Below are positions 9,315 to 29,850 of a stretch of DNA of 50,189 nt, one piece after another; position 1 is the stretch's first letter, and every line of letters begins with the position of its first letter. The translations under genes and the position numbers were made by a program. The notes under the pieces were generated by a model. The model was given only the letters and a program-made list of their open reading frames with translations. It ran no database searches and was not told the origin of the DNA. Source of the DNA: Terriglobia bacterium (GTDB taxonomy: Bacteria > Acidobacteriota > Terriglobia > Acidiferrales > UBA7541); contig JAIQGC010000044.1 in NCBI GenBank assembly GCA_020072805.1, forward strand, positions 1-50,189, given 5' to 3'.

Positions 9315-9371
9315 CCCTCGCCCAAACACACCCGCAGCCTCCCCCCGGCGCACTCAGCCCACCCGCCAGGC

Positions 9372-9755: not shown

Positions 9756-9791
9756 CGTTCTCCCATCTTTCCGAACAAAAAACTCCTTCTT

Positions 9792-10499: not shown

Positions 10500-10634
10500 C
10501 ACCCACCTCGCTCACTTCGCATCGCCGGAAAAATTCCCGTTCCCGCCCACACCTTCGGCGTTTGCGGAAAAGACACAATAACACGCCTGCCGCGCTCCGT
10601 TAAATTCGCAGGGAGGCGTCCGTTTCAGGTCGTT

Positions 10635-10664
10635 ATCCATCCTGCGATGGATTGCAGGATGGAT
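10635..10664. repeat. Inverted repeat downstream of the Kelch lipoprotein gene
   Basis: ATCCATCCTGC (10635-10645) and GCAGGATGGAT (10654-10664) form an 11-bp stem with an 8-nt loop, 60-90 bp beyond the Kelch lipoprotein stop codon. There is no T-tract on either side, so it is more likely an mRNA 3' stem than a classical terminator. Confidence 0.45.
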
Positions 10665-10724
10665 GGGGCTTGTGAATTGCTTTCGCGGAGTCCGCCTAAG
10701 CCGGCCGCAACTTTAGAATCTAGA

Positions 10725-12899
10725 TCAAGGGTAAGGCAAATAGCGCCACAGATCGTTGAGCTGGCCATTTCCATTTGTGCCGCCCGAATCGTAGCCTTCT
10801 CCGCCGAAGATCCAGAGCTGATCGTAGGGGTCCATCCAATAGGCGGGAGCCCAACGACCGCCTGGGTAGTCAATGACGTGTGGCCAGACTGTGGGGTTGG
10901 CCTGGATGCCATAGACGCCCGCCTGATTGACGGAACTGGGACCCTTCATCCAAGTCCACTGCCCTCCGCTGTATTGCCAGAGGTCGCTGAGAGAGCCGTT
11001 GGCGGTGGTATCGTAGCCTCGTCCGCCGAACAGCCATAGTCTTCCGGCAGGATCCGTCCACGCGGCGGAACTCCACCGTGCGCCGGGAACGTTGGTCGCG
11101 GCAGCGACGCCTAGCGTGCCGTAAACGCCAGTCTGATTGACACCGCTCGATCCGCTCACCCAGGTCCACTGTCCTCCGCTGTATTTCCACAAATCGTTGA
11201 AAGCGTTGGGCTGACCTGTCGGAGAGAGATTGTAACCGCCAAAAACCAAGAAATTACCTGCGCCGTCAATCCAGGAGATAGGAGCCTGGCGTCCGCCAGG
11301 AACATTGGAGGCCGCGGCTGTGCCCTGCGTGCCATAAACGCCGCTTTGATTAACGGTATTCGCACCACTCACCCAGGTCCACTGGCCACCGCTGAATTCC
11401 CAGAGGTCATTGAGCAAACCAGGGCTGGAGGTGACCGAGTCGAACCCATATCCGCCAAAGAGCCACAAAGTGCCCGCAGCATCGACTCGTGCTGTCGCAC
11501 CCCAGCGCCCTCCGGGCCAATTCGAGGCCGAGGCAACCCCTAAAGTGCCGTAAACGCCATTTTGATTGGCGCCTCCGTTAACATACGTCCAAGTATTTGT
11601 CGTGGTGTCGTAACTCCACAAATCGTTCATGAAATTCGTGCCCGCATCTTGACCGGCGAATAGCCAGAGCTTTCCTGCTGCATCGGTCCAACTGACGGAC
11701 CCCCATCGCGCAACGGGGTCCGTGGGAAGAGGCGTAGTCGGTCTCGTCTGCGTCCAGCCGGTGTTGAAGCCGGCAAGGTAGACTTGCGTGCCCGTGTACT
11801 TCCACATGTCATTCATTCTTACCGTATTTGCTGTCTTGACCGTATCCCAGCCATCGCCTCCAAACAGCCAGAGATTCCCGCTGAGGTCGGTCCAAGTTGC
11901 CGAGTATTTGCGTCCGCCTGGCGATCCGTTGTCTTGCGCCGTAGGCGACACGGTCCCGGAAACGGCCAACTGGTCGGCAGAGCTTGAACCGGCCATCCAT
12001 GTCCAATCATTGTGTCCGCAATCCACCAGAACGTCCGTGACATTGGCGAGGACTGTGCCCTGGAAGCCCCATATCACGCACCCCTGAGGCTGCGTGCCGG
12101 GCCCCACAAACATGCTGACATCGTAGGTGCTTTTATAGGCGATGGTGGTGGAAAACGTGAAAGGTCCGTTTCCGGAGAGGGGCAGGTTGTCGCCGCCGTT
12201 GTTCTGTATCACCATGCCCCCGCCATTGCCGAGTACACCAACGGTCTGACCGCCCACGGTGAAGAAGACAGCCGGGCAGGTGACTTGAACACTGGTGACG
12301 TTGGCGCTGGCCGTGCCGCTGCCGTTGGTGACAACGCAGGTTTGCGCCGGGCTGGTAGGCTGCGTCTTGACAATTACAGCGTAGGCGGCGCCGCTGGCGA
12401 GCAGGGTCGCAAACGTAAATGTGCCGTTGGCGGTGACCGTGAGGTCATCGCCGCCGTTGTCCTGCAACACCAGGCCCGTACCGGCCAGTCCGGAGACGGT
12501 GCCGCCAATAGATATCGTGCCGGACGTGCAGCTAACCACAATGGTGCCCACGTTCGCCGTGGCGGTGCCGGAACCGGCGGCGACCGAGCAGACCTGCGTG
12601 GGGTTGGTGGGTTGGATCAGGACCGTAACGCTGTATGCGGCGTTTACGGCAAGAAGAGTTTTAAAAGTGAAGGCGCCGTTCGCGTTAATGGTGAGGTTGT
12701 CTCCGCCGTTGTTCAGGAGCACCAATCCCGTGCCGGCCAATCCGGAGACGGTGCCGCCAATCGTGAGCGTGCCGGAGCCCGTACCGGAGCCCGTGCCGGA
12801 ACTTAAACTCGCGCTCTTGGGGGCACCGCTGCAGGCTGCCAGGAGAAGCGACATCATCAGTAGGGACAAGACAGAGGTGAGTTTCATGACCAGCTTCAT
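10725..12899 (-). CDS. Kelch-repeat lipoprotein with three N-terminal beta repeats
   Basis: A 724-residue secreted lipoprotein. The signal peptide ends in the lipobox LLAAC with Cys23. Three repeats of about 77-90 residues follow, each built on GGTVSGLAGTGLVL, NNGGDNLT, ANGxFTF and a Cys pair. These resemble short beta-sandwich modules common in Acidobacteriota and Myxococcota. From about residue 330 come roughly six Kelch-type units (WLFGGxGYD, LNDLW, WTWVSG, VNQxGVYGT, PGGR), likely forming a beta-propeller. Propellers of this kind bind glycans or proteins at the surface. ATG 12899 has CAGGAG 8-10 nt upstream; the open frame to 12953 lacks such a site. No enzyme active site is visible. Confidence 0.85.
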   Translation of the reverse strand: MKLVMKLTSVLSLLMMSLLLAACSGAPKSASLSSGTGSGTGSGTLTIGGTVSGLAGTGLVLLNNGGDNLTINANGAFTFKTLLAVNAAYSVTVLIQPTNPTQVCSVAAGSGTATANVGTIVVSCTSGTISIGGTVSGLAGTGLVLQDNGGDDLTVTANGTFTFATLLASGAAYAVIVKTQPTSPAQTCVVTNGSGTASANVTSVQVTCPAVFFTVGGQTVGVLGNGGGMVIQNNGGDNLPLSGNGPFTFSTTIAYKSTYDVSMFVGPGTQPQGCVIWGFQGTVLANVTDVLVDCGHNDWTWMAGSSSADQLAVSGTVSPTAQDNGSPGGRKYSATWTDLSGNLWLFGGDGWDTVKTANTVRMNDMWKYTGTQVYLAGFNTGWTQTRPTTPLPTDPVARWGSVSWTDAAGKLWLFAGQDAGTNFMNDLWSYDTTTNTWTYVNGGANQNGVYGTLGVASASNWPGGRWGATARVDAAGTLWLFGGYGFDSVTSSPGLLNDLWEFSGGQWTWVSGANTVNQSGVYGTQGTAAASNVPGGRQAPISWIDGAGNFLVFGGYNLSPTGQPNAFNDLWKYSGGQWTWVSGSSGVNQTGVYGTLGVAAATNVPGARWSSAAWTDPAGRLWLFGGRGYDTTANGSLSDLWQYSGGQWTWMKGPSSVNQAGVYGIQANPTVWPHVIDYPGGRWAPAYWMDPYDQLWIFGGEGYDSGGTNGNGQLNDLWRYLPYP

Positions 12900-13509: not shown

Positions 13510-14706
13510 CTATTCGCTCTTGCGGCTGGGCGGGGTCGCCCCGGCAGGTTCCCGGATAGGGGCCATGCGGTCCTTGCGGATTTCGAATTCGGTTTCGCCC
13601 CAGACGATGCGGTTGGAGGCAAAGCTCCACAGCCAGATAAAGAAATTGCCCGCGTCGCGCAGCGGCACAAGCCACAGCCTGCGCCGCAGCACTTCGTCGC
13701 CCACGACCCAGACGCCCACGACCCAGGCCTGGGTCAGGCGCAGAAGCAGATAAGCGCCCAGATAGCCAGCGGCGACGGCGCGGGTGGGAGCTACCAGCGC
13801 GGCGGCCACGGCCCAGGGTAAGCCGTGTGTGAACAGAAGACCGGCATAAGAAAGCGGGCGGCAGAGGCGCACAGTGCGCGCCCAGCGCACTTGATGGTCC
13901 ACATAGCCGCGGAAACTTTGCGCGGGATACATGGTCCAGACGGGTTCGCGGGAGAGAACGATGCGGCCGCCCTGGAGAAAAATGCGGTGGCCCAGTTCGT
14001 AGTCGTCCGAATGGAGATCGGCGATAGTTTCCAAGCCGCCGATGCGGACGATCCAGGATTTGGTGGTGACCATGGTGGCGCCGAGAGCGAAAGTGAGGCC
14101 TTCGAGCAGGCCGGCCATCAGAACGCCGGCGAAGAAGTCGGAAGCCGCGCCGACGGCTTCGAGTTCGGCGAAGAGGTTGCCCTGGGCGATGCCGCGGTAG
14201 AAGCAGGTGACCAGACCGGTGCGCGGATCGGCGAAGGGCGCCACCACTTCGCGCAGATAGCGCGGACCCACGCGCACGTCGCCGTCGCTGAGAACCAGAA
14301 TCTCGTGGCGGGCTTCGGGCACGATGCGGCAGAGATTGCTGATTTTGCGGTTGGCGCCCAGAGGCGCGGCACCGGAAAAGATTCGAATGCTTCGCTGGGG
14401 AAACTCCGCCTGCAGGCGCTCGATGAGCGGCACGGCGGGGTCGGTCATCTCGTTGACGACAAAGAGCAATTCGTAGTCCGGGTAGTCCTGGCGGCAAAAG
14501 CTTGAAAAATTTTCGTAGGAGGCGAAATCCACGCCGCGCACGGGCTTGAGCAGGCTCACCGGAGAAGTAAAATCCGGCAGCGTGCGCGCGCATTCGCGGC
14601 GGAAGAAGCGCCAGGCGGCCAGCGCGGAGAGAACGTAATAGGCGAGGGGGGCCAGCGCCGCGAGAAGCAGCCCGTACCGCAGGATGGATTGCAACAGAAC
14701 AGGCAA
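13510..14706 (-). CDS. HpnI-like GT2 glycosyltransferase (module 1)
   Basis: A 398-residue membrane-anchored family 2 glycosyltransferase of the ceramide glucosyltransferase/HpnI type. HpnI adds N-acetylglucosamine to bacteriohopanetetrol. An N-terminal transmembrane helix is followed by SLLKPVRGVDFASYENFSSF. The catalytic DxD is in LVLSDGDVRVGPRYL, the acceptor-side acid in DDYELGHRIF and the (Q/R)xxRW motif in HQVRWARTV. Two or three C-terminal helices follow. The start is TTG 14706, with GGAG close upstream. It is last in an apparent operon after the ArnT-like gene (30-bp gap) and the AsnB-type gene. It is a paralogue of the gene at 19782. The exact acceptor lipid is unproven. Confidence 0.85.
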   Translation of the reverse strand: MPVLLQSILRYGLLLAALAPLAYYVLSALAAWRFFRRECARTLPDFTSPVSLLKPVRGVDFASYENFSSFCRQDYPDYELLFVVNEMTDPAVPLIERLQAEFPQRSIRIFSGAAPLGANRKISNLCRIVPEARHEILVLSDGDVRVGPRYLREVVAPFADPRTGLVTCFYRGIAQGNLFAELEAVGAASDFFAGVLMAGLLEGLTFALGATMVTTKSWIVRIGGLETIADLHSDDYELGHRIFLQGGRIVLSREPVWTMYPAQSFRGYVDHQVRWARTVRLCRPLSYAGLLFTHGLPWAVAAALVAPTRAVAAGYLGAYLLLRLTQAWVVGVWVVGDEVLRRRLWLVPLRDAGNFFIWLWSFASNRIVWGETEFEIRKDRMAPIREPAGATPPSRKSE

Positions 14707-14736
14707 AGGACTCCGTCCGCGCGCCGTTTCACGCCG

Positions 14737-16563
14737 CTACTTGTTCGTGAAAAGAAACTTTCCGCCGCTGGCGGCGACCGAATGAAGATTTTCGGCGCCG
14801 ACCAGTTCCTTCAGATGCGCCAGCCGCGTTTCGTCGCTCAACACGTAGAAACGCTCGGCGCCCATCCACAGCGCTGCGAATTTCACGTCATCAATGAACA
14901 CGTTGGGGCTGCCCGGCGAATAAGAGCCGTATTCGAGATTGTTGCGGCGGCCGTTGAGCAGCAGCGCGGTGCGATTGGTATAGAAAAAGACGGAAGAGAA
15001 GCCGTAATACTCGTCATTGAGAATCAGACGCCCCTGCGGAGCGCGCAACAGGGCTTCGGCGAGGGGCCGCGAACCCATAAAGGGATCGAAAACAACGAGA
15101 GCGACGCGCGCGGCATGGAAAAAGAGAACCATCATCAGCGCGAAGGCCAGATAGACGCGCGGCACGGATAAACGCCACGCGGCCACCGCCCCCAGCAGCA
15201 TGGCCAGCCCGGCCAGCACGAGCGGAGTGCGCAAGTAGGCGAAGGAGTTCAGCGTGAGGTCGCCCATATGGCCGAGGGAAAGCGTGTAGGCATCGGGATG
15301 CTGTTCAAGGGCGCGGGAAATGTCGCCGGGAGCGGGCATGTGGCGGGTGAGAAAGAGAACGGCGGCGATCACGGCGGCCGCCGCGGCGGAAATCACGCCC
15401 ACGGCGCGCGAGCCGAAGCGCAGCCAGCGGCTTTCTCCGGCCATCACGCAGCCCAGCAGGAGCGCCAGCGCGGGATAGACGGGCATGGAATAGTATTCCT
15501 GCGTGGTGGAAAACGTGAAAAACGTCAGCAGGAATCCGCACCAGCACAGGGCCAGCAGGCGCGTGCGCCCGGCGCGGTCCACCGGCTTGTAGCCGAGCGC
15601 GGCGGCGCCGGGAAAAAACGCGGACCAGGGGAAGAGCCACAGCAGGTGAAAGAGCCAGAAGGCCGCGCGGGGCACGGTGTTGTAGTCGCGCGGATAGCGA
15701 AGATTGAGGAAGCGCAGGACGTGTTCGTTGATGAAATAAAACCAGAAGAAGCCGCGATATTCGCCGGGGCCGCTGTGCATGGTGAAATCGAAATAGGGCG
15801 GCATGCGCCGCATGGCCAGGATGTGCCAGGGAGCGGCGATGGCCAGCAGGAGGAGCAGTCCGGAGAAAACGTGCAGCCGCCGCCACAGGTCGCGCGAAAA
15901 AAGCTGCCGGGTTACCGCCAGATAGACAAAGATGCCGCCCACAGGAGTCACCAGCGCGATCAGGCCCTTGAGCAGCAGGCCCACGCCCAGGCACGCGGCC
16001 AGCGATGCGGCCCACCAGCGCGGATGCGGCTCCTCGGGGTCGGTGGCGCGCTGAAACGACCAGAAGGCCAGGCCGACGGTGAGGGTGATCATCACGTCGG
16101 GAATCTGGATGCGCGTGAACATGAACAGGCCGGTGCTGGTGGCGATGCACAGCCCGGCAAAAAATCCGGCGCGCTGCCCGAAGGCCCAGCGGCCGTAGCG
16201 GAAAGTCATCCAGGCCAGCAGGACGGCGGTGAGAGCGTTGGGGATGCGCGCGGCCCAGTCGTGCGCGCCGAAAATCCAAAAGCACAGGGCCATGATCCAG
16301 TAGTTCAGGGGAGATTTTTCGATGTAGGGAACACCATCAAGGTGGGCAATCACCCAGTCACCCGACTGGAGAAAGTTGCGGGCGATCTGCGCCTGCACGG
16401 CGTCCACATCGTCCATCAGGGAAGGCGGGGAAACCATGCAGCCGAAAAAGACGGCGGCGGCGAAGAGGACGACGATCAGGCCCGCGTGGCGGAAAAGCCC
16501 GTCAGACTCCGGCCCGCCGGCGGCGCCGCGCTGTCCGTTTGAATGTTCCACTGTTTGATCCAT
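14737..16563 (-). CDS. ArnT-like GT39/83 lipid-linked sugar transferase (module 1)
   Basis: A 608-residue polytopic glycosyltransferase of the PMT/ArnT class, which moves a sugar from a polyprenyl phosphate to a lipid or protein on the outer face of the inner membrane. After the first helix comes the acidic PPSLMDDVDAVQAQIARN loop (the catalytic Asp region). IEKSPLNYWIM corresponds to the K-x-PLxYW substrate loop. About eleven more helices and a soluble C-terminal domain follow. The start at ATG 16563 overlaps the AsnB-type gene by 88 bp. No start lies between the asnB stop and the first helix, so the overlap is real. It pairs with the following HpnI-like GT2, as in module 2. Confidence 0.83.
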   Translation of the reverse strand: MDQTVEHSNGQRGAAGGPESDGLFRHAGLIVVLFAAAVFFGCMVSPPSLMDDVDAVQAQIARNFLQSGDWVIAHLDGVPYIEKSPLNYWIMALCFWIFGAHDWAARIPNALTAVLLAWMTFRYGRWAFGQRAGFFAGLCIATSTGLFMFTRIQIPDVMITLTVGLAFWSFQRATDPEEPHPRWWAASLAACLGVGLLLKGLIALVTPVGGIFVYLAVTRQLFSRDLWRRLHVFSGLLLLLAIAAPWHILAMRRMPPYFDFTMHSGPGEYRGFFWFYFINEHVLRFLNLRYPRDYNTVPRAAFWLFHLLWLFPWSAFFPGAAALGYKPVDRAGRTRLLALCWCGFLLTFFTFSTTQEYYSMPVYPALALLLGCVMAGESRWLRFGSRAVGVISAAAAAVIAAVLFLTRHMPAPGDISRALEQHPDAYTLSLGHMGDLTLNSFAYLRTPLVLAGLAMLLGAVAAWRLSVPRVYLAFALMMVLFFHAARVALVVFDPFMGSRPLAEALLRAPQGRLILNDEYYGFSSVFFYTNRTALLLNGRRNNLEYGSYSPGSPNVFIDDVKFAALWMGAERFYVLSDETRLAHLKELVGAENLHSVAASGGKFLFTNK

Positions 16564-18398
16564 AGAAAGAGAATCACCAGGCCCCAAAGATGATAGCCGA
16601 AGCTCTCGTGCCTTTCGAGATGTAGTTTCATGATGTTCTCGACGCCGTCCCAGCGGAAGACACCACTATCCTTGACGGCGCGCTCGTTCAGCGTATCCAG
16701 CAGCAAGGGCTTGAGCACGCCGCGGAACCAGTCGTGCGCGGGAATATCGAATCCCACCTTCTTGCGGTGCAGGATGGACTCCGGCAGCTTCCCTTTCATC
16801 AGCTGGTGCAGGATGTATTTCAGGCTCGAGCCATGCACCTTGTAGCTTTCCGGGAGCGAGGCGGCGAATTCGGCGATTCGGTGATCGAGGAAGGGCGGGC
16901 GCACTTCGAGGGAATGGGCCATGCTCATGCGGTCGGCCTTATAGAGGATGTCGTCGGCCAGGTAATAGCGCTGGTCGAAGAGCATGTAGCGGTTGAGGCC
17001 GCCGGTTTGCGGCATGTTTTCGAGCAGCTTGCGCATGGGCGCGGCGTCCGCGCGCAGGAAAAATTTCCGCTTCTGCTCCTCGGAGAACGTGCCGTTCCAG
17101 TAGATATGCGCTTCGTCGGCAGGAAGCAGCGAACCTTCCAGGAAGCGCTTGAGCTTGTACTCGAGGCTGATCTTTTCGTCGGAGACGGGCCAGTAACGCA
17201 TGCTGGCCAGCGCCGCGCGGCGCAGCGGCGAAGGAACCAGCCGCGCCAGGCGCGCGTATCGGTCGGCGCGGTAGGTCAGGTAGCCGCCGAAAAGCTCGTC
17301 CGCGCCTTCTCCGCTGAGCGCCACGGTGACTTCCTGCGAGCTCATCTTGGCCAGAAACCAAACCGGGAGGCAGCCGGCGTCGGCGCTGGGTTCGTCGGAA
17401 TAGTAGGCGAACTTCTCGATGGCCCCGCGCAGATCGATTTCCGTGCTCAGGTCGAATTCGGTGTGGTCGGTGCCGTAGCGCGCGGCCACTTCGCGGATGT
17501 AGGCGCCTTCGTCGAAGCTGCGGCCCTTGAAGGTGATCGAGAAAGTTTTCAGCGGCGTGGCGGAAGCCTCCGCGGCGTAATGGAGAATGGTCGAGGAGTC
17601 CAGCCCGCCGCTGGCCCACACGCCCAGGGGAACGTCGGCCACCAGATGCTCGCGGACGGATTTTCTCAGCAGATCGTCGAGCTGTTCCTTGGCCTCTTCG
17701 AAGCCGATCTCGTGTTTGCTGCGCGGGCGCGCTTCGCAGCGCCAGTAACGTTCGGTGCTGACCTTACCGTTTTCCCACGCGAGAAAATGGCCGGGCAGCA
17801 GCTTTTCGATTCCTTCCACCAGCGTGTACGGCGCAGGAACGTAGTTCAGCCGCAGGTAGCAGTTGAGCGCTTCCAGATTCAGGCGGCGGTCAATCTCCGG
17901 ATGGAACAGGATGCCCTTGAGTTCCGAGCTGAAATAAATGTCCTCGCCCTTGGAAGCGTAATAGACCGGCTTGATGCCCATGCGGTCACGGGCCAGGACC
18001 AGGCGCTGGCGCGATTCGCTCCAGAGAGCCAGGCCGAACATCCCGCGCAGCCGCTGAAAGCAGGCGGTATCCCACTGCAGGAAAGCGTGCAGCACCACTT
18101 CGGTGTCCGTGCGGGTCTTGAAACGGTGGCCCAGGGCTTCCAGTTCCGCGCGCAGTTCGTTGTGATTGTAGACTTCGCCGTTGTAGGTGAGAGCCACGTC
18201 GCCATCGTCGCTGCGCATGGGCTGTTCCACGGTGGTCAGGTCGATGATGGTCAGCCGCGCCGCGCCGAGGGAGACGTGCGGCGTTTCGAAAACGCCCTGC
18301 TGGTCGGGTCCGCGGTGGATCAGGCAGGAGGTGACGTCTTGGATGAGACCGCCGGGCACCACGCGGTTTTTATGTGTGAACCCGGCAATTCCGCACAC
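16476..18398 (-). CDS. asnB: AsnB-type glutamine-dependent amidotransferase
   Basis: A 640-residue class II glutamine amidotransferase/asparagine synthetase. The start is GTG 18398, so that Cys2 (MCGIAGF) becomes the catalytic N-terminal nucleophile. The glutaminase domain has LIHRGPDQQG, LTYNGEVYNH and TDTEVVLHAF. The synthetase domain carries the PP-loop VWASGGLDSST around residue 265 and VALSGEGADELFGGY. The final 25 residues (from about IKQWNIQTD) are not family-like and overlap the next gene by 88 bp. Enzymes of this type in glycan clusters often amidate sugar acids or glycan intermediates rather than make free asparagine. The nearby transferases favour that reading, but the sequence does not prove it. 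Confidence 0.88.
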   Translation of the reverse strand: MCGIAGFTHKNRVVPGGLIQDVTSCLIHRGPDQQGVFETPHVSLGAARLTIIDLTTVEQPMRSDDGDVALTYNGEVYNHNELRAELEALGHRFKTRTDTEVVLHAFLQWDTACFQRLRGMFGLALWSESRQRLVLARDRMGIKPVYYASKGEDIYFSSELKGILFHPEIDRRLNLEALNCYLRLNYVPAPYTLVEGIEKLLPGHFLAWENGKVSTERYWRCEARPRSKHEIGFEEAKEQLDDLLRKSVREHLVADVPLGVWASGGLDSSTILHYAAEASATPLKTFSITFKGRSFDEGAYIREVAARYGTDHTEFDLSTEIDLRGAIEKFAYYSDEPSADAGCLPVWFLAKMSSQEVTVALSGEGADELFGGYLTYRADRYARLARLVPSPLRRAALASMRYWPVSDEKISLEYKLKRFLEGSLLPADEAHIYWNGTFSEEQKRKFFLRADAAPMRKLLENMPQTGGLNRYMLFDQRYYLADDILYKADRMSMAHSLEVRPPFLDHRIAEFAASLPESYKVHGSSLKYILHQLMKGKLPESILHRKKVGFDIPAHDWFRGVLKPLLLDTLNERAVKDSGVFRWDGVENIMKLHLERHESFGYHLWGLVILFLWIKQWNIQTDSAAPPAGRSLTGFSATRA

Positions 18399-18515
18399 GC
18401 TGGAGATCCCCCCGCCTGGAAATAGACTCGTTCCTTAAACTACTAGTCTAATCGCATGGGCGCATTTGTGAAAGAGACGCGGCGCGGCGCGTTGTTCTGT
18501 TTTATTGGACGCTAC

Positions 18516-18545
18516 TTGACTCTTCTCGGAAGCTGCCCTTATTCT
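18516..18545 (+). promoter_or_regulatory. Sigma-70-type promoter of the methyltransferase gene
   Basis: TTGACT (18516-18521), an 18-nt spacer and TATTCT (18540-18545). Transcription would start near 18552, 18 nt before ATG 18570. Confidence 0.55.
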
Positions 18546-18569
18546 TGAATTTCACCGGCAACCTATTCA

Positions 18570-19574
18570 ATGAAACGAAAACTTCTCACCTATCTGACCT
18601 GTCCCCGCTGCCGCCTGCCATTCACGCTCACCGTCGAACGGGCGGAATGTGAGGAGATTCTGGAAGGCGAGCTGGACTGCGCGTCCTGTTCGGCGCGATT
18701 TCCCATTCTGCGCGGCATTCCCCGCTTCCTGCCGCCGGACCTTTCCGCGGAGAAACAGGCCACCGCCGCCGCGTTCGGTTACGAATGGACGCACTATTCG
18801 GAAATCACCGAAGCGGACCAGGAAGAGTTTCTCGACTGGATTCGCCCGCTGACCGCGGCGGATTTTGCCGGGAAAGTGGTTTTGGACGGCGGTTGCGGCA
18901 AGGGGCGGCACATTTTTCAGGTGGCGCGCTTCGGGGCGGCAGACGTCATCGGCATCGACCTTTCCGACGCCGTCGAGGCGGCCTACCCCAACACGCGGCA
19001 CCTTCCCAACGCGCACGTCATTCAGGCGGACATTTATAATTTGCCGTTTCTCGCGCCCTTCGATCTGGCCTACAGCATCGGCGTGATTCACCACCTGCCC
19101 GATCCCAAACAGGGTTTTCTCAGTTTGGTCAAGCACGTGAAGCCTGGAGGGCGGGCGTCGCTGTGGGTCTACGGCAAAGAGGGCAACGCGTGGATTGAAA
19201 ATCTGGTGGACCCGGTGCGCATTCACGTCACTTCGCGGCTGCCGAAATTTTTGACTCAGGTCATTTCGTTCTTCGTAAGCTTGCCGCTTTATGCGGCGCT
19301 GAAGCTGCTCTATGGACCGGCCGAGCGCCGCCCGGGACTGGCCTGGCTGAAGCGCCGGCTGCCTTACTCCGGCTATCTCTGCGCGATTTCCGGCTATTCC
19401 TTCGCGGAAAATATGTGGAACGTATTTGACCAACTGGTGGCGCCTACGGCGAATTACATCAGCGAGGCGGAGATGAAGGATTGGATGGCAACCGCCAAGC
19501 TCGGCGAGGTGCGCATCAGCCAGCGCAACAACAACAGCTGGCGCGGCACGGGCGTCAAGCCCCGCGAAGCGTAG
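18570..19574 (+). CDS. SAM-dependent methyltransferase with N-terminal zinc-ribbon
   Basis: A 334-residue class I methyltransferase. The N-terminal Trm112-like zinc-binding part has CPRC (residues 11-14) and CASC near residue 37, ending in the typical FPILRGIPRFLP. The SAM-binding fold shows motif I VVLDGGCGKGRH, motif II GIDLSD, and LAYSIGVIHHLPDP as motif IV. The C-terminal third contains a hydrophobic stretch (VISFFVSLPLYAALKLL) that may contact the membrane. Proteins of this layout are common in surface glycan and glycolipid loci and methylate lipid-linked or sugar substrates. It is transcribed alone between two GT modules facing the other way, from its own promoter. Confidence 0.87.
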   Translation: MKRKLLTYLTCPRCRLPFTLTVERAECEEILEGELDCASCSARFPILRGIPRFLPPDLSAEKQATAAAFGYEWTHYSEITEADQEEFLDWIRPLTAADFAGKVVLDGGCGKGRHIFQVARFGAADVIGIDLSDAVEAAYPNTRHLPNAHVIQADIYNLPFLAPFDLAYSIGVIHHLPDPKQGFLSLVKHVKPGGRASLWVYGKEGNAWIENLVDPVRIHVTSRLPKFLTQVISFFVSLPLYAALKLLYGPAERRPGLAWLKRRLPYSGYLCAISGYSFAENMWNVFDQLVAPTANYISEAEMKDWMATAKLGEVRISQRNNNSWRGTGVKPREA

Positions 19575-19599
19575 CTGGGCAGGGAAACCCAGCTAAAGA

Positions 19600-19716
19600 T
19601 GTCATCCTGAGGCCCCGATGTCTTATATCGGGGCAGAAGGATCTCAACGGAAAGCCTCAGCAACACGTGAAGCTGAGATTCTTCGCCCATCCTCGCCGGA
19701 TGGGCTCAGAATGACA
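19600..19716. repeat. Inverted pair of mosaic palindromic repeats
   Basis: The left element begins TGTCATCCTGAGG, carries the hairpin GCCCCGAT (19612-19619)/ATCGGGGC (19627-19634) and ends AGAAGGATCTCA. The right element, read on the minus strand, begins TGTCATTCTGAG, carries the hairpin CCCATCC/GGATGGG and ends GAAGAATCTCA. The two form a roughly 117-bp imperfect palindrome between convergent genes. Flanks match the single repeats at 1533 and 3972. Confidence 0.7.
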
Positions 19717-19781
19717 GATTTCGTTTTTCCCGCGGCCCGCAAGAACTTCATCGCCAACATCCGCGAAATGGAACGATTGCT

Positions 19782-20975
19782 CTATTCGGCGGCGGAAGCG
19801 CTTTCCTTGCTCACGCGCACCAGCAGACCCTTCTTCACGCGATACTCGATGCCCCGCCAGCGGATTTTGCTGGCGAAGAATCCCGCAACCCACACCACAA
19901 AATTGATGGCATCGCGCAGCGGCACCAGCCACAGGCTGCGCCGCGTCACCGGGTCGCCCAGCCCCCACACGCCCACCGTCCAGACCAGCAGCAGGCGTAG
20001 CGCCAGATAAGCGCCCAGATAACCGGCGGCCAGCGAGATCGAAGGCGCGAGCGCGGCGGCCAACACGGCCCAGGGCAGGCCGAAGGTCATCAGCAGGCCC
20101 ACGTAGCCCGCGGGACGCACATTGCGCAGGCCGATGGCCCAGCGCAATTCGTGCTGCAAAAATTCCTTCATAGTTTCGCGCGGAAAGACCATGGTCACCG
20201 GCGTGCGCAGCAGCTCGATGCGCAGGCCCAGCGCGGAGATGCGGTTGCCGAATTCGAAATCGTCGGAGTGGTGATAGACCATGGCCTCGAAGCCGCCGAT
20301 GGCCTCGAGATGCTTTTTCGTGGTGGCCATGGTCCAGCCAAAGGCGAACTGTACTTTGCCTTCGATTTTGCGGGCCACCAGCGCGTTGGGCACCGTTTCG
20401 GCCGCCAGCACCAGCGCTTCGAATTCCGCTCCCAAGCTGCCTTCGACCTGCCCGCGAAAAAAGGAAGTGACCGCGCCGACTTGCGCATCGGCAATGGGCG
20501 CGGCGACCTCGCGCAGATAGTTTGGCTCGACGCGCACGTCGCTGTCGCTCATCACCAGCAGGCCGTGGCGCGCTTCGCGGGTCAGCCGGCAAAGATTGTT
20601 GACCTTGCGGTTGGGGCCCAGTTGCTCGATTCCGGTGAGCAGGCGGATTTGCCGCTCGGGAAAATCGCGGCGCAGTTTTTCGACCAGGGGGATGACCGGG
20701 TCGTCGTCATCGCCCACGGCGAAGAGAATTTCATATTCGGGATAGTCCAGGCGGCAGAAACTGGCGAAATTTTCATACGCGCCGTGGTCCACGCCGCGCA
20801 CCGGCTTCAGGATGCTGGCCGGGGGCGTGTGCGAGGACGCCACGGCCTTGCGCCGGTGCTCGCCACGAAAAAAATCCCAGCCGCAATAAATGGCCAGCGC
20901 GTAATAGACCAGCGGCCCCGCCGCCGCGGCCAACGCCGCCCAGCGCAGTCCCTGCAATACAGCGTGCACGCTCAT
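19782..20975 (-). CDS. HpnI-like GT2 glycosyltransferase (module 2)
   Basis: A 397-residue paralogue of the GT2 at 13510. An N-terminal membrane anchor precedes SILKPVRGVDHGAYENFASF. The DxD motif is in LLVMSDSDVRVEPNYL, the third acidic motif is HSDDFEFGNRI and the terminal motif is HELRWAIGLRNVRPAG. Three hydrophobic segments close the protein. This arrangement matches ceramide glucosyltransferase/HpnI enzymes that glycosylate membrane lipids on the cytoplasmic side. It is the last gene of the hpnJ-to-GT operon, 6 bp after the GT39 stop, and ATG 20975 follows AGGA at about 10 nt. Acceptor could be a hopanoid polyol, a ceramide-like lipid or a polyprenyl phosphate. Confidence 0.85.
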   Translation of the reverse strand: MSVHAVLQGLRWAALAAAAGPLVYYALAIYCGWDFFRGEHRRKAVASSHTPPASILKPVRGVDHGAYENFASFCRLDYPEYEILFAVGDDDDPVIPLVEKLRRDFPERQIRLLTGIEQLGPNRKVNNLCRLTREARHGLLVMSDSDVRVEPNYLREVAAPIADAQVGAVTSFFRGQVEGSLGAEFEALVLAAETVPNALVARKIEGKVQFAFGWTMATTKKHLEAIGGFEAMVYHHSDDFEFGNRISALGLRIELLRTPVTMVFPRETMKEFLQHELRWAIGLRNVRPAGYVGLLMTFGLPWAVLAAALAPSISLAAGYLGAYLALRLLLVWTVGVWGLGDPVTRRSLWLVPLRDAINFVVWVAGFFASKIRWRGIEYRVKKGLLVRVSKESASAAE

Positions 20976-20981
20976 TCGCGC

Positions 20982-22304
20982 TTATCCTTCCGCCGCCGCG
21001 GAGTCCGCCGCGCCCGCCCCGATGGGATCGGGGCCCGCACCGGTGGAATCGGGGCGGGCCAGCAGCACGCCGATGAATACGGCGGCCACCGTGTCCAGCG
21101 GGTGGCGGTACTCGATTCCCGGATGCGTAAAATAATAGATCATGGGATAGACGAGCAACACCAGCGCGAGGGGAATCACCGCATGGCGATTTCGCCGCCA
21201 GGCTTTGCGCAGCCCGGCCAGCAGCAGCGCCGTGAGCGCGCTGCAGAATCCGATATTGGGGATGGTCAGCGGCTCGGCTTCGCGGTACTCCCGGCTGAGC
21301 GACCAATAGCCTGTCCAGGTAAAAAAGAAGCGCCGCACGCTGGTGCGCAGAAACAGTCCCGGATTTTGCCGCAGAATCCCGATCGCAGCGGCGCGCTTCT
21401 CCCGCATGTAACCCAGTTCTCCCAGGCTGTAATATTTCGCGAGTTCCGCGTCGTTGTGCGCGGGATTGGTCCAGTCGGGATAGAGGTCGGAGCCGTCGCC
21501 GGTATTGCCCTGCCAGAAAACCAGCCAGAAGGTGTCGCGGAACGGAACGAAGCGGCCAAACGCGGCGTAGTTGCGCGCAAACCACGGTGCCACCGTCAGC
21601 GTCAGCAGCAACAACGCCACCACGGATTGCCTGCTCCAGCCCAGCCCGCGCCGATGCCGCCGCCAGGCGATCCAGCCGAGCAGGAACGGCAGCGTGGCGA
21701 GCATCACGGCGTTGCTGAGCGCCGCCACGCCCCACAAAATTCCGTAGCCCGCCCAGGCCAGCAGCCCGGCCCGCCCTTCGGCTGCTTCGAGAGCGGCTGT
21801 GGCCCAGAGAACCAGCGCCAGCATCATCGCGTCCAGGGTGTAGTCCCAGACGAGGCTGCTGGAAATGAAAATGGAATAGGGATGCAGCGCCCAAACCAGT
21901 CCCGCCCAGAACGCCGCCGAACATCCGAAAAATCGGCGCGTCAGAAAATAGACCGGGAGGACGGTGAGCGCGGCAAAGATTGCGTTGAGAAGAAGCGCAG
22001 CCCAGGCGGACGCCGGCGTAAACGTGCCGAAAATCCGGAAGATACCGGCAAGGAGCGCGGGATAGACCGGAGTGGTCCACGCGGTCGGGCCCGTGCGCGC
22101 AAAAAGCGGTGAACTGAATCCTTCGCCATTCGCGAGCGAGCGCGCGATGCGCCCTTCCTCGCAGCCGAAGGCCCAGTGATCGCGCGTGGGATCGAGCTGA
22201 TCGCCGATGAGGAACGGAATGACCACGGCGCGCACCACCAGCGCCAGCAGCATCAGCAACAGGATGGCGCGCCAGGCGCGGCCTCGGTCAGTGGAATCGT
22301 TCAC
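20982..22304 (-). CDS. ArnT-like GT39 glycosyltransferase (module 2)
   Basis: A 440-residue polytopic transferase of the dolichyl-phosphate-mannose/ArnT superfamily. After the first helix comes the acidic loop CEEGRIARSLANGEGF and the TPVYPALLAGIF segment, followed by about nine further helices and a soluble tail. The HPGIEYRHPLDT motif near the C-terminus is typical of this group (cf. RY-x-P at the end of many GT39 proteins). The start is GTG 22304 with GGAG upstream. The last 25 codons (21060-20985) are occupied by a palindromic repeat and read ARPDSTGAGPDPIGAG, so the tail appears to be an insertion-derived extension. It lies between the small transporters and the HpnI-like GT2. Confidence 0.82.
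   Translation of the reverse strand: MNDSTDRGRAWRAILLLMLLALVVRAVVIPFLIGDQLDPTRDHWAFGCEEGRIARSLANGEGFSSPLFARTGPTAWTTPVYPALLAGIFRIFGTFTPASAWAALLLNAIFAALTVLPVYFLTRRFFGCSAAFWAGLVWALHPYSIFISSSLVWDYTLDAMMLALVLWATAALEAAEGRAGLLAWAGYGILWGVAALSNAVMLATLPFLLGWIAWRRHRRGLGWSRQSVVALLLLTLTVAPWFARNYAAFGRFVPFRDTFWLVFWQGNTGDGSDLYPDWTNPAHNDAELAKYYSLGELGYMREKRAAAIGILRQNPGLFLRTSVRRFFFTWTGYWSLSREYREAEPLTIPNIGFCSALTALLLAGLRKAWRRNRHAVIPLALVLLVYPMIYYFTHPGIEYRHPLDTVAAVFIGVLLARPDSTGAGPDPIGAGAADSAAAEG
21012..21060. repeat. Intragenic GPD-type palindromic repeat (copy 1)
   Basis: GCCCCGAT-GGG-ATCGGGGC is an exact 8-bp inverted repeat, followed by a second, partial copy (GGAATCGGGGCGGGC). It lies inside the 3' end of the GT39 gene and adds the peptide GAGPDPIGAG. 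Related sequence occurs at 40740 and 42530 inside kinase genes, and the same 8-bp arms form the hairpin in the repeat at 19612. Confidence 0.6.
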
Positions 22305-22360
22305 TCGCCAGCTCCAAATTCGTTTGCGCTAAAAGTCCCGAAACTCCTGCCGCGCCGCGT

Positions 22361-22738
22361 TCACCCCGCGGTGACCAGCAGCACACCCGCGCACACCAGC
22401 AGCACGCCCGCCCAGCGCCCCGCGCTTACCTGTTCGCCGAGCAGATACTTCGCGCCCAGCGTGCCCACCACGTAATTGAACGCGGAAGCGGGAATCACCA
22501 GGCTGGCCGGTTCCCAGGAGAGCAGCACCAGCAGCGAATAGAACGATATGGCCAGCAGCGGGACGCCCGCCCAGAACCATCCGCTCCGCAGCGCGCGCCA
22601 AAGAAAAGCCAGCAGCGCGCGCGGGCGCAGGCGTTCCGGCTCGCCCACTTTCTTCATTCCGTGGGTGATGGAGATCTCCCCGCCCGTGCTGCTGAAGATG
22701 AGCACGGCGAGCAGGATGGCGCTGCGCGCATGGATCAT
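22361..22738 (-). CDS. EamA/SMR-type small membrane transporter, second of pair (ArnE/F-like)
   Basis: A 125-residue protein with four transmembrane helices of the drug/metabolite transporter (EamA/SMR) type. The motif ISITHGMKKVG in helix 1 resembles ArnE/ArnF and EmrE-like proteins. PASAFNYVVGTLGAKYLLGEQVSAGRWAG is the conserved helix 4 approach, with Glu in GEQV. ArnE/ArnF act as a pair to move undecaprenyl-phosphate-linked sugar across the inner membrane. The start overlaps the stop of the partner gene as ATGA (22735-22738), which fits production of a heteromer. Its position just ahead of an ArnT-like gene supports a flippase role by context. Confidence 0.82.
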   Translation of the reverse strand: MIHARSAILLAVLIFSSTGGEISITHGMKKVGEPERLRPRALLAFLWRALRSGWFWAGVPLLAISFYSLLVLLSWEPASLVIPASAFNYVVGTLGAKYLLGEQVSAGRWAGVLLVCAGVLLVTAG

Positions 22739-23163
22739 GGCAACGCTCCGCCAGCCGCGTGCGTGGTGCGCGGCTTGGTCTGCCCCACCAGCAGCACGCC
22801 GATGCAGATCAGCGCCACGCCGGCCCAGCGCCGCGCGCTGACGCGTTCGCCCAGAAAAATCATGGCGAAGAAAGTGAACGCAGCATAGCCGAAGGCTCCC
22901 GCGGGCATCACGTAGCTGTAATCGGCCCAGGAGACCGCGGTCATGTAGCTGAACATGAAGCCCGAAAGGAAAAGAATAGCCAGCCAGATGGTGGGATTGA
23001 CCACGGTTTGCACGAAGGCATGGGCCAGGCCCGCGGCGCTTAACTCCACCGCGCCCACCTGGGTCATGCCGTGCTTCAGCAGCAGGTCGCCCGCGTTGGC
23101 GCAGAGCACCAGCAGGAAGACCATGGCCAGCGTCTTGATCCGGAGCTTGCGCTCGTGTGGCAT
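22735..23163 (-). CDS. EamA/SMR-type small membrane transporter, first of pair (ArnE/F-like)
   Basis: A 142-residue, four-helix member of the same transporter class as its downstream partner. Helix 1 holds ANAGDLLLKHGMTQVGAVE, and the last two helices include MPAGAFGYAAFTFFAMIFLGERVSARRWAG. The Glu of GERVS matches the conserved GE motif of EamA proteins. The C-terminal 15 residues are hydrophilic. It starts 10 bp after the hpnJ stop codon and overlaps its partner by 4 bp. The two proteins are clear paralogues of each other and probably form one functional unit. Drug efflux is the alternative, but glycolipid neighbours make lipid-linked sugar translocation more likely. Confidence 0.82.
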   Translation of the reverse strand: MPHERKLRIKTLAMVFLLVLCANAGDLLLKHGMTQVGAVELSAAGLAHAFVQTVVNPTIWLAILFLSGFMFSYMTAVSWADYSYVMPAGAFGYAAFTFFAMIFLGERVSARRWAGVALICIGVLLVGQTKPRTTHAAGGALP

Positions 23164-23173
23164 TTTGCGCGGG

Positions 23174-24632
23174 TCAGTCGTTTCCCGAAGCGGAAGGCAT
23201 TTCCGGCACGGAGACCATCGCTTTTTCCGCGCCTCCGCCCTGCTTGACCCACTTCAGCCGCTCGGCGCGCAGCGAGAGAAATTCCCGGGCCTCGGTGTAG
23301 AGCCGTTTGCGCTCGTTGCTGTCCCACAGCGCTTCCTTCACGATGCGCCAGACCACCCGCGGCCGGAAATAGTATTCGTCATAAAAGCGATTGACCCCGG
23401 CCATCATCTCCGCCTTCGAAAGATGCGGATATTCGAGATGCGGCAACTGGTGCCCGCCCGCATCGGCCAGCGCTTCCACGCGCAGGAAACCCTCGCGCTG
23501 CATCTGCTCGTGCATTTCCGTGCCGGGCATGGCGTGGGCAATGGAAACCTGAATGGTTTCGCAGTCCAGTTCCTTGGCGAATTCGATGGTCTTCTGAATG
23601 GTCTCCCTGGTTTCTCCGGGCAAGCCCAGGATGAAATCGCCGTGAACGCGGATGCCCACCTTGCGGCAGTTCTTCATGAAGTTGCGGGCCATCTCGACCG
23701 TCGCGCCCTTCTTCACGTTCTTCAGAATCTGCGGGTCGCCCGATTCGAATCCCACGATCAGCAGGCGCGCGCCGGCGTCGGCCATGGCCTTCAGCGTTTC
23801 GTAGTCGCTGTGCACGCGCGCCGTCGCCGACCAGCGGAACTTCAGCGGCTTGAACAGGGCGCACAGTTCCAACACGCGGTCCTTGCGAATGTTGAACGTG
23901 TCGTCGTCGAAGAAGATTTCCTTCATCTGCGGGAACATCTCGATGGCTTGCTTCACTTCCCGCGCCACGTTGGCCGCCGAGCGCACCCGCCAGGCGTGCC
24001 CGGAAAGCGTCTGCGGCCACATGCAGAAGGTGCACAGCGCGGGGCAGCCCCGGCTGGAATAAAAGGCCACGAAGGGATTCAACAGGAAGGGAACGTTGTA
24101 GCGCTCGATCTGCAGGTCGCGCTTGTACACTTCAGTCGCAAAGGGCAGCGCGTCCAGCTCTTCGGTGTGCAGTTGCGGCCGGTCCGGGTTATGCACCACC
24201 TTGCCGTCCTTGCGGTAGCTGGCGTTGCGGATCTGCTCGACGGGCACGCCCTTGGCGTATTCCACCACGGCGTGATCGAACTCCCCGCGCACGATGAAGT
24301 CAATGTCCTCGCTGCCCAGCAGGGTCTCGTTGGGCTTGGTGTGCGCGTGCGGCCCCACGAAGGTCCGTTCCCCTCTCAAATCCCACCGTCGAGGTAAACA
24401 GCACCAGGAACTCGTAGTCCTTGGCGATCTCCACGGTCTGTTTCCAATCAATCTTGTGCGGGCAGGCGTCCACCAGCCGGCTCCCCGGCAGCATCCCCGC
24501 GGGATAGGCCAGCCACACCGGATACCAATACGATTCAATCTCGCGCGTCGCGGGCCACCGCGAACTCGCTCCCCCGTCAAAATTCTCGAAGCTCGGCGGG
24601 TTCAGGAACAGCGTTTTCAGCACATCGGTCAT
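23174..24632 (-). pseudogene. hpnJ: Hopanoid-type B12-binding radical SAM protein HpnJ, frameshifted
   Basis: HpnJ-family protein. HpnJ is linked to formation of the cyclitol headgroup of bacteriohopanepolyols from an amino-sugar precursor. Two frames must be joined. Codons from ATG 24632 encode the N-terminal half of the B12-binding-like domain (KTLFLNPPSFENFDGG, FWYP-like SYWYPVWLAYPA, LVLFTSTVGFE). The other frame resumes at GERTFVGPHAHTKPNETL and continues through the radical SAM core (SRGCPALCTFCMWPQT with the CxxxCxxC cluster, EIFFDDDTF, VGFESG, GLPGETRETI) to TGA 23174. The break is near 24370-24382. About 13-16 residues expected between these parts are missing, so it looks like a deletion rather than one lost base. 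A sequencing or assembly error is possible. Confidence 0.8.
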
Positions 24633-24704
24633 TCTTCACCTTTGGTCCGCAACGGGGACACACGCACAACTCTCGGGCCAATCGCCCGGCAATCCTATTC
24701 TTCT

Positions 24705-24733
24705 ATTCTACCTAACCCGGAGACATGGCCCAA
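24705..24733 (-). promoter_or_regulatory. Putative sigma-70 promoter of the hpnJ operon
   Basis: On the minus strand, TTGGGC (24733-24728), a 17-nt spacer and TAGAAT (24710-24705). Transcription would start near 24698, about 65 nt before ATG 24632. Confidence 0.45.
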
Positions 24734-24844: not shown

Positions 24845-26203
24845 TTACCGCTTCCCCGCTCCCGCATCTTCCGTCGCCGCATCCAGAATCTCCCAAATTT
24901 TTCCCAGCCATTCCTCATGCTCCGGCTTCATCAGCGTCAGGCGCAGGCAGGTAAGTTCCCCGGCGTCGCGCACGGCTGCGGCGGCGGTGGAAAAGAATCT
25001 TCCCGGCAATTTCGCCAGCGCCACATGCAGATTGCGCCGCGCCGCGCATTCGAAAATCCGCCGGGAAAGCGCCGAGACTTCCTCGGCCGTCTCTGCCGCG
25101 GGCGCGAAGACCAGCACATCCAGCTCAGGCTCGAACGCGGTCACGAAACGCGCATCGCCGCGCAACTTTTCGAAAAGCGCCAGCGCCGCCGAGCGTCCCT
25201 TCGCCAGCCCCCGCGCCAGCTCGCCGCCGCGCACCAGCGGCAGCAGCTTCTGCGTGGCCCACAGGGCCACGGCCGAAGCGCCCGGGCGGGAACATTCCAG
25301 GCTGATTTCGCCCAGATGCAGTTCCGTCGAACTGAAATAGGTGTACGGCGAATCGTGTTTGTAATGGCGGCCCGCCGCCGGATCGCGAAAGAGCACACAG
25401 CCGCAGCCGTAAGGCTGCAAGCCGTGCTTGTGCGGGTCAATCACGATGGAATCGGCTTCCCCGATGCGCGCAAAGGCCCGCAGCGCCGCGGCACCCAAAT
25501 TATCCGCCAGCGTAAAATAGCCGCCGTAAGCGGCGTCCACATGCACGCGCGCGCCATGCCGCCCGCACAGCTCCAGAATTTCCGGCAGCGGGTCCACCGC
25601 TCCTGTGCCCGTCGCTCCCAGCGTAGCCACCACCGCGCCCACGCCGCCGCGCTCCAGCCGCGCCTTCAGCGCCGCCATGTCCATGCGGCCCCGCGCGTCG
25701 CAGGCCACGCTCTCATAGGAAATCCGCAGCACCGCGCTGATACGGTTGTGCGTGTAGTGGGCTTGCTCGGACGCCAGGATCGTTTTCCCCGGCCGCTCCT
25801 GCCCGGCCACCCACAGAGCCTCCAGATTGGCCATAGTCCCGCCGCCGCACAGGTGCCCCAAAAATTCGCTCCAGCCGAACATAGCCGCCAGTTCCGCCAC
25901 GGCCTCCTTCTCCATGCGCGAACTGGCGCGCCCGCCGTCCAGCGCGTGATTATTGGGATTGATCCACAAGGAGAGCATGTAAGCCAGGCGCGCCACGGGA
26001 TGCGGCGGCTTGAGCATCTGCCCGGCATAAAGCGGATGAAAATAGGGAAAATTGTCGCGCAGGCGGTCGGCCGCGGCGAAGAGGACCTCGCGCAGCCCCT
26101 GCTCGTCCGGCTGCTCCGGGGAAAACGGCGGCAACCCCGCGAAACCCTGCTCCAGCCGCTGCGCCGCCTGCAAGAGCAGTTTCATGGATTCCAGTTCAAA
26201 CAT
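24845..26203 (-). CDS. Group II PLP-dependent amino acid decarboxylase
   Basis: A 452-residue pyridoxal-phosphate enzyme of the aromatic-L-amino-acid/glutamate decarboxylase family (group II). The active-site Lys lies in [17 protein letters not shown], preceded by the PLP-binding [10 protein letters not shown] (Asp and Ala contacts). The N-terminal half has [22 protein letters not shown] and [16 protein letters not shown], also typical of the family. It may convert an amino acid to its amine; the substrate is not readable. Length fits the shorter bacterial members. It is the last gene of a probable operon with a tripartite efflux system, 36 bp after tolC, which suggests the amine or a derivative is exported. 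A second ATG at 26185 is possible. Confidence 0.86.
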
Positions 26204-27559: not shown

Positions 27560-27574
27560 CTCTTTCACCTCTCC

Positions 27575-28777: not shown

Positions 28778-28814
28778 GGCTTATTCGCCGCTCGTTTCCT
28801 CTTCGCCGCCATTT

Positions 28815-29825: not shown

Positions 29826-29850
29826 TTCCGCTCCGCCGTTCGCAGGCTCC

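Follow-up and report, generated by a model that had tools for sequence, protein, structure and literature searches.

Hopanoids are made by bacteria, are related to cholesterol and serve widely as molecular fossils. The closest described route to their headgroups comprises three steps, encoded by hpnI, hpnK and hpnJ, which lead to bacteriohopanetetrol cyclitol ether according to the passage on this pathway in PMC12583986 (citing Schmerk et al. 2015). The same paper describes HpnN as the hopanoid carrier to the outer membrane and gives the function of HpnL as not established. The second relevant system is the small multidrug resistance (SMR) family of transporters, in which central glutamates bind both substrate and protons; lipid-transporting members frequently carry an asparagine at the central position, and a tyrosine switch is conserved (PMC9574504, in the sections on these residues). 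Here we describe a locus that combines elements of both. It lies on a contig of 50,189 nucleotides from a Terriglobia bacterium of the Acidobacteriota (assembly GCA_020072805.1, contig JAIQGC010000044.1), the whole of which is hereafter called the window; the source genome amounts to 3.98 Mb in 157 contigs. The genes in question are hpnJ, two adjacent SMR-type genes (SMR1 and SMR2) and two copies of hpnI.

It is rather probable, in our judgement, that this locus is a hopanoid headgroup and flipping module of Acidobacteriota, with the SMR pair as a flippase dedicated to headgroup-bearing hopanoid lipids. This interpretation is based on the HpnI and HpnJ genes, the conserved SMR pair, the near-perfect co-occurrence of HpnJ with squalene-hopene cyclase (SHC), and the lack of a central glutamate in the SMR proteins. 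The flipping of a glycolipid is a role that we infer from sequence, with good genomic support. HpnI would add N-acetylhexosamine to bacteriohopanetetrol on the cytoplasmic side, whereupon a deacetylase and HpnJ would convert the N-acetylhexosamine headgroup. The completed hopanoid glycolipid would then be carried to the periplasmic leaflet by an SMR1/SMR2 heterodimer similar to ArnE/ArnF; in proteobacteria, HpnL may have this function. An original prediction made from the letters of the window had already proposed an Arn-like pathway that makes and exports a headgroup for a membrane lipid, perhaps a hopanoid; gene order, HpnI scores and SMR profiles support this in so far as hopanoid headgroups and a flippase similar to ArnE are concerned.

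Gene layout of the locus

On the minus strand the genes follow each other in the order HpnJ, SMR1, SMR2, GT39b, HpnI-b, AsnB, GT39a and HpnI-a, with a plus-strand methyltransferase between HpnI-b and AsnB. GT2 and GT39 designate glycosyltransferase families, SAM stands for S-adenosylmethionine, and bit scores refer to the profile named.

23174..24632, minus strand: hpnJ (radical SAM protein of the bacteriohopanetetrol cyclitol ether pathway), broken; two-frame match to TIGR03471
24632 down to about 24366, minus strand: N-terminal part of hpnJ; 137.2 bits, TIGR03471
about 24364 to 23174, minus strand: C-terminal part of hpnJ in another frame; 539.6 bits, TIGR03471, cut-off 577.6
22735..23163, minus strand: SMR1, first subunit of the candidate flippase; EamA 23.6, phn_DUF6 24.0 and ArnE 20.2 bits, all below cut-off
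22361..22738, minus strand: SMR2, second subunit of the candidate flippase; ArnE model 25.7 bits, cut-off 92; profile E 8e-40 to SMR1
20982..22304, minus strand: GT39b, PMT_2-family membrane glycosyltransferase, accessory; PF13231 37.1 bits, cut-off 26.1
19782..20975, minus strand: hpnI-b, glycosyltransferase; TIGR03472 333.9 bits, cut-off 310
18570..19574, plus strand: class I methyltransferase with Trm112-like N-terminus; domain matches
16476..18398, minus strand: asnB-type glutamine amidotransferase, accessory; TIGR01536 477.4 bits, cut-off 267.1
14737..16587, minus strand: GT39a, ArnT-like membrane glycosyltransferase, accessory; ArnT of PDB 5ezm 99.4 bits, NF009784 101.5 bits, cut-off 567
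13510..14706, minus strand: hpnI-a, glycosyltransferase; TIGR03472 328.1 bits, cut-off 310

SMR1 and SMR2 overlap by 4 nt, 10 nt separate the end of HpnJ from SMR1 and 6 nt the end of GT39b from HpnI-b; because of these short gaps and the overlap, HpnJ through HpnI-b looks like a single transcription unit. The inventory of the original prediction (an asnB-type gene, two GT39, two GT2, hpnJ and two SMR-type genes, with a methyltransferase between) was confirmed. What it overlooked is that hpnJ is broken.

Gene order in related genomes

Among 61 related genomes, HpnJ scores at least 420 bits in 47, and 46 HpnJ loci were surveyed, leaving out G025, whose HpnJ lies at a contig end. The SMR pair immediately follows HpnJ in 43 of the 46; it is missing in G053 and G060, and the G002 locus stops at a contig edge. 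A wider collection comprises 80 named loci, the best 80 of 583 confirmed in a scan of genome contigs. Being the best matches to an acidobacterial query, they are a biased and related set. Two SMR genes lie within 4 kb downstream of HpnJ in 68 of them, one in 2 and none in 10, four of which end within 2.5 kb after HpnJ. The 68 loci with a pair belong to Acidobacteriota (64), Myxococcota (2), Nitrospirota (1) and a genome labelled Actinomycetota (1); the locus lists were used without de-duplication, and L084 and L075 appear to be the identical contig. The original prediction would have been refuted by a gene order not conserved in relatives; the HpnJ-SMR-SMR order is conserved in both collections.

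The pair also occurs in operons that include HpnK above its cut-off. The order HpnJ-HpnK-SMR-SMR-HpnI occurs in L143, L150, L157, G121, G154 and G181, and G109 has HpnJ-HpnK-SMR-SMR, with HpnI not in the stretch seen. HpnK scores 266 to 306 bits in these seven, the cut-off being 232.6. PMC5462960 cites the cyclitol ether of Chloracidobacterium thermophilum. Another arrangement, HpnI-HpnK followed by a single SMR gene, was observed in G124, G095 and G253 (L213, L216, L217), with no HpnJ match in the stretch. A match on a Lawsonia plasmid turned out to be a distant radical SAM protein (33.8% identity) and was not used.

Association with squalene-hopene cyclase

Scored for HpnJ and SHC, the 61 genomes divide into 45 with both, two with HpnJ only (G055, G060), two with SHC only (G011, G014) and 12 with neither, large fragments (SHC of G014 and G029; HpnJ of G000, G002 and G060) being counted as present. 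Counted by genus, the same four classes hold 11, 2, 0 and 9 members (Fisher 2e-4, kinship ignored). In a sample of 199 Acidobacteriota genomes drawn from the whole phylum, HpnJ of at least 430 bits is found in 29, all 29 of which have SHC. SMR2 is matched at E<=1e-12 in 35 genomes of this sample and at 80 bits or more in 32, of which 30 have SHC (Fisher 1e-19, kinship ignored; the three weaker matches, in G113, G139 and G173, all lack SHC and were excluded from the test). As no more than 22 candidates were scored for SMR2 in each genome, some copies may be missed.

Physical linkage points in the same direction, neighbourhood genes being assigned by single-sequence or small profiles. SHC, HpnH, HpnA, HpnI, HpnK (393 bits) and SMR stand in series in G124, and in G153 an FtsX-TolC-HpnJ-SMR-SMR-HpnI cluster adjoins HpnC, D, E, A and H. 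HpnC-D-E faces SMR-SMR-HpnJ in G131 and G179, as HpnJ-SMR-SMR faces HpnE-D-C in L156, and the G142 locus also lies near hopanoid genes of the SHC/HpnA/C/D/E/H type.

The SMR pair resembles lipid-type transporters

All 16 SMR1 members tested match EamA (best E 2e-9). The NCBIfam models give weak scores throughout for the pair: phn_DUF6 matches 15/16 SMR1 and 6/15 SMR2, ArnE 9/16 and 14/15, ArnF 2/16 and 8/15, and each of the drug-SMR models EbrA and EbrB 2/16 and 1/15. When the SMR1 profile was compared with single E. coli sequences, the probability was 92.9% for ArnE, 63.4% for EmrE and 0.08% for ArnF; the corresponding values for the SMR2 profile are 85.8, 18.3 and 0.06. Both proteins are thus nearer to ArnE than to EmrE, an outcome opposite to the grouping with drug exporters that would have spoken against the original prediction.

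Residues at functional columns are also informative. At the column of EmrE Glu14, SMR1 has Asn in 56 of 68 sequences and an acidic residue in none, whereas the column holds Thr in 56/69 and Asp in 2/69 of the SMR2 sequences, none of which has Glu. The column of the switch residue Tyr60 holds Tyr (44/68) or Phe (23/68) in SMR1; in SMR2 it holds Val in 60/69, the alignment being gapped there. The predicted model of SMR1 is helical (mean predicted local distance difference test, pLDDT, 78.9), and the top solved folds are EmrE and Gdx (probability 0.97-1.00, E 0.17-0.18). We predict that the SMR pair works like ArnE, though by score it is not classed as ArnE.

Two HpnI proteins and a variable set of accessory genes

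Each of the two GT2 proteins of the window scores above the equivalog cut-off of HpnI, and they share 51% identity over 386 columns, so that the paralogy of HpnI-a and HpnI-b is real. The GT2 motifs D, DxD, D and RW are intact in both copies when compared with the 129 homologues collected, and the predicted function would be the transfer of N-acetylglucosamine to bacteriohopanetetrol. In a tree of 88 rows, the HpnI-a clade (23 rows, support 100) and the HpnI-b clade (16 rows, support 100) contain members of the genus only. An assignment of these proteins to ArnC or to polysaccharide synthases was rejected since they score as HpnI and match no ArnC model; the placement among polysaccharide synthases against which the original prediction was to be checked is therefore not what is found. 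The likeness to the Arn pathway that it had proposed holds for the flippase and for GT39a, and does not extend to the two GT2 proteins.

GT39a and GT39b are both PMT_2 proteins (75.6 and 37.1 bits; cut-off 26.1). They had been described, like the GT2 genes, as a paralogous pair. This is right for the GT2 proteins; for the GT39 proteins paralogy cannot be demonstrated, and recent paralogy was rejected, as their best mutual match has E = 0.006 over 67 residues. GT39a matches the solved ArnT structure at E 1.5e-27 and remains far below the ArnT equivalog cut-off. Its frame overlaps AsnB, and the true start may lie inside the annotated frame. For GT39b, a PDB sequence search returned no match at E<=0.1 and the predicted structure (pLDDT 43.2) is too poor for use; close relatives occur in G005, G007 and G009.

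These genes are not part of a fixed arrangement. Of the 46 loci, 8 have a GT39 gene downstream of HpnJ in the same orientation and 6 others have one in the opposite orientation; AsnB lies near HpnJ in five of the 46, in one case in the opposite orientation. The methyltransferase was not found in 40 other fetched stretches and is probably an insertion peculiar to the source genome. Two parallel GT2/GT39 modules, which the original prediction took to be the design of the locus, were consequently rejected as a conserved feature, the HpnI clades being restricted to the genus and GT39 not being conserved in the loci. The conserved core is HpnJ-SMR-SMR-HpnI, with GT39, AsnB and the methyltransferase as accessory genes. 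The second HpnI, GT39 and AsnB are lineage-specific additions that may diversify the headgroup; any chemistry assigned to the accessory GT39 and AsnB is guesswork. G015, G031 and G006 (L044, L062, L187, L204) have two SMR pairs per region, AsnB and a further HpnI being encoded on the other strand; the two pairs of G031 fall on two overlapping stretches.

The broken hpnJ and the deacetylase step

Compared with two aligned relatives, hpnJ of the window lacks about 44 nt, and its N- and C-terminal parts are in different frames. The broken frame does not reach the full-length HpnJ cut-off of 577.6 bits, which is exceeded by a copy in 44 of the 61 related genomes. Elsewhere in the source genome, SHC, HpnH (425 bits) and HpnA (435 bits) are adjacent on contig C141. 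The alignment of the SHC gene (stretch L081, 5478-7217) has an internal gap, and the frame aligned contains a stop codon; HpnG contains a run of N. The apparent damage to hpnJ and SHC could reflect decay of the pathway or errors of assembly. If the broken copy is real, the HpnJ step is probably missing in the source strain.

HpnK, whose absence from the locus had been pointed out in the original prediction, was indeed not found among the genes of the window. The highest-scoring HpnK match in the source genome (185.1 bits, cut-off 232.6, TIGR03473) is on another contig, C110, where this HpnK-like YdjC deacetylase adjoins an ArnC-like GT2 gene (219 bits, cut-off 529). In a tree of 23 rows, the source copy groups with copies of the genus (100/99) and weakly with a G059 protein (83/87), outside the separate clade (97/95) formed by HpnK of hpn operons. 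Six HpnK-like proteins keep 12 of the 14 polar columns that are invariant in nine reference HpnK; the other two change from His to Ile/Leu/Val and from Tyr to Met. In G059, the HpnK-like relative directly follows HpnJ-SMR-SMR-HpnI and is itself followed by the ArnC-like gene. Because of its position beside the ArnC-like GT2 and that of its relative in the G059 operon, the divergent YdjC deacetylase is a candidate for the missing HpnK step. HpnK above the cut-off is present in only two of the 61 genomes, G053 and G060. PMC5462960 reports hpnI and hpnJ and no hpnK for Acidobacteria of subdivisions 1 and 3. In G046 (L173), a GT39a-type gene, an ArnC-like GT2 gene and an HpnK-like deacetylase gene stand in a row, an arrangement that we take to be reminiscent of the Francisella lipid A aminosugar genes.

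HpnL, HpnN and possible export genes upstream

HpnL and HpnN are each above cut-off in none of the 61 genomes, weaker matches being present in 8 and 56 of them, respectively. In Mycetohabitans, HpnL (325.7 bits, cut-off 195.65) follows hpnI-hpnJ-hpnK, and the acidobacterial G087 has an HpnL-like gene after HpnI-HpnJ-HpnK (HpnK 340 bits); altogether, three loci of proteobacteria and one of an acidobacterium have HpnL where others have the SMR pair. In a survey of 142 HpnJ loci, an SMR pair without HpnL was seen in 121, a single SMR gene without HpnL in 2, HpnL without SMR in 4 and neither in 10; the other 5 end too soon.

Upstream of hpnJ, the window carries the following genes.

24845..26203, minus strand: pyridoxal phosphate (PLP)-dependent decarboxylase; PF00282 101 bits
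26240-27568, minus strand: TolC-type outer membrane efflux protein (OEP); PF02321
27575-28777, minus strand: MacB/FtsX permease; PF12704, PF02687

A tetratricopeptide repeat (TPR) protein and then an HlyD-type protein lie upstream of the TolC-type and MacB/FtsX genes (block 26240-31098). In 37 of 46 loci a TolC gene precedes HpnJ in the same orientation, and FtsX together with TolC is also upstream of HpnJ in G036, G037, G055, G059 and G153. Given this recurrence, these proteins may export hopanoids where HpnN is lacking, and TolC with MacB/FtsX is a possible export partner of the locus. A PLP-dependent decarboxylase between TolC and hpnJ was seen in many members of the genus.

Weighing the flippase interpretation

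Several observations weigh against a dedicated hopanoid flippase. The two window proteins themselves have Ala (SMR1) and Ser (SMR2), not Asn, at the Glu14 column, and both fall below the ArnE cut-off of 92 (20.2 and 25.7 bits). The longer drug/metabolite transporter (DMT) model phn_DUF6 matches more SMR1 proteins than ArnE does, E. coli ArnF taken alone is unmatched by the SMR profiles, and the Foldseek E-values of SMR1 are weak (best 0.17). Both hpnJ and SHC look broken in the source assembly, and the two genomes with HpnK above cut-off, G053 and G060, lack the SMR pair. G049 has SMR-SMR-HpnI (L079: SMR 10300-11074, HpnI 9148-10287) without SHC or a true HpnJ, and the SMR pairs of G132 and G227 occur with neither an HpnI match in the stretch nor SHC in the genome; from these three cases, the SMR protein family is not confined to hopanoids. 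The locus counts are phylogenetically non-independent. Finally, neither SMR within 4 kb nor HpnL within 5 kb is present at ten HpnJ loci that do not lie at contig ends, one of them (G188) with an SMR pair 8 kb away. The mutual exclusion of SMR pair and HpnL is based on 4 HpnL loci, which also seeded the HpnL profile, and the loci of the present class served to build the SMR profile, so that more distant members of either family could have escaped notice.

The alternative that survives best, although we regard it as unlikely, is that the SMR pair flips an undecaprenyl-phosphate aminosugar which GT39 transfers to a hopanoid or to lipid A, HpnI and HpnJ belonging to a neighbouring pathway. ArnE and ArnF are the nearest known relatives among SMR models. 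The source genome has the ArnC-like GT2 gene beside a YdjC deacetylase that keeps most HpnK polar columns, relatives of these two directly follow HpnJ-SMR-SMR-HpnI in G059, and a GT39a-type gene stands beside such relatives in G046. However, only 8 of 46 loci have a GT39 gene downstream in the same orientation, the six HpnK operons with the order HpnJ-HpnK-SMR-SMR-HpnI keep the SMR pair with no GT39 match, and SMR2 tracks SHC.

It is less probable still that the HpnI/SMR set serves a lipid other than hopanoids, for example a ceramide or a glycerolipid, the SHC correlation being phylogenetic. Both HpnI proteins contain the Glyco_transf_21 Pfam domain, whose family includes ceramide glucosyltransferase. 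The G049 cluster, and the two of 47 HpnJ genomes that show no SHC (G055, G060), also fit this view. It is opposed by the gene clusters of G124, which includes SHC, HpnH and HpnA, and of G153, which includes HpnC/D/E/A/H, and by the presence of SHC in every HpnJ genome of the phylum sample. That the pair is a cation or drug exporter of the EmrE type merely beside hopanoid genes is very improbable: the SMR-type fold prediction and the few EbrA and EbrB matches would fit, but a central Glu is found in 0/68 SMR1 and 0/69 SMR2, and the pair is conserved beside HpnJ and HpnI in several phyla.

Going beyond the hopanoid flippase itself, SMR1/SMR2 might be the first dedicated hopanoid glycolipid flippase, as an alternative to HpnL, and the second HpnI, AsnB and GT39 might extend the periplasmic headgroup into an undescribed composite hopanoid. 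This fuller scheme we consider doubtful.

Comparison with known systems

The SMR pair provides a two-gene flippase candidate for headgroup hopanoids that is open to deletion and testing, and the findings bear on the published puzzle of Acidobacteria with hpnI and hpnJ but without hpnK (PMC5462960). Among the matches listed from the openly licensed PMC literature, none names a protein that flips a headgroup-bearing hopanoid across the inner membrane, and no title or abstract describes a link of hopanoids with SMR, EamA or a flippase. The locus is a variant of the known bacteriohopanetetrol headgroup genes joined to a conserved lipid-type SMR pair, a combination for which no description was found.

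With the hpnI-hpnK-hpnJ system it shares the HpnI and HpnJ families, and like operons of several phyla include HpnK above cut-off. It differs in the SMR pair, the lack of HpnK in the window, the duplicated HpnI, the added GT39 and AsnB, and the broken hpnJ. HpnL (TIGR03476; LPG_synthase_TM) is likewise a membrane protein encoded beside hpnI, hpnJ and hpnK in Mycetohabitans and G087; it belongs, however, to another Pfam family than the SMR pair and is above cut-off in none of the 61 genomes. As to aminosugar transfer by ArnC and ArnT, GT39a resembles ArnT, and an ArnC-like GT2 with a deacetylase exists elsewhere in the source genome, whereas the GT2 proteins of the locus score as HpnI and GT39 is not conserved. 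The ArnE/ArnF flippase offers the closest parallel to the SMR pair: a glycolipid operon encodes two small SMR-type proteins side by side, the central glutamate is lacking, and the switch column of SMR1 holds Tyr in 44 of 68 sequences and Phe in 23. In contrast to ArnE/ArnF, the window pair stays under the ArnE cut-off, SMR2 as aligned has mostly Val at the switch column, and the linkage is to hopanoid rather than lipid A genes.

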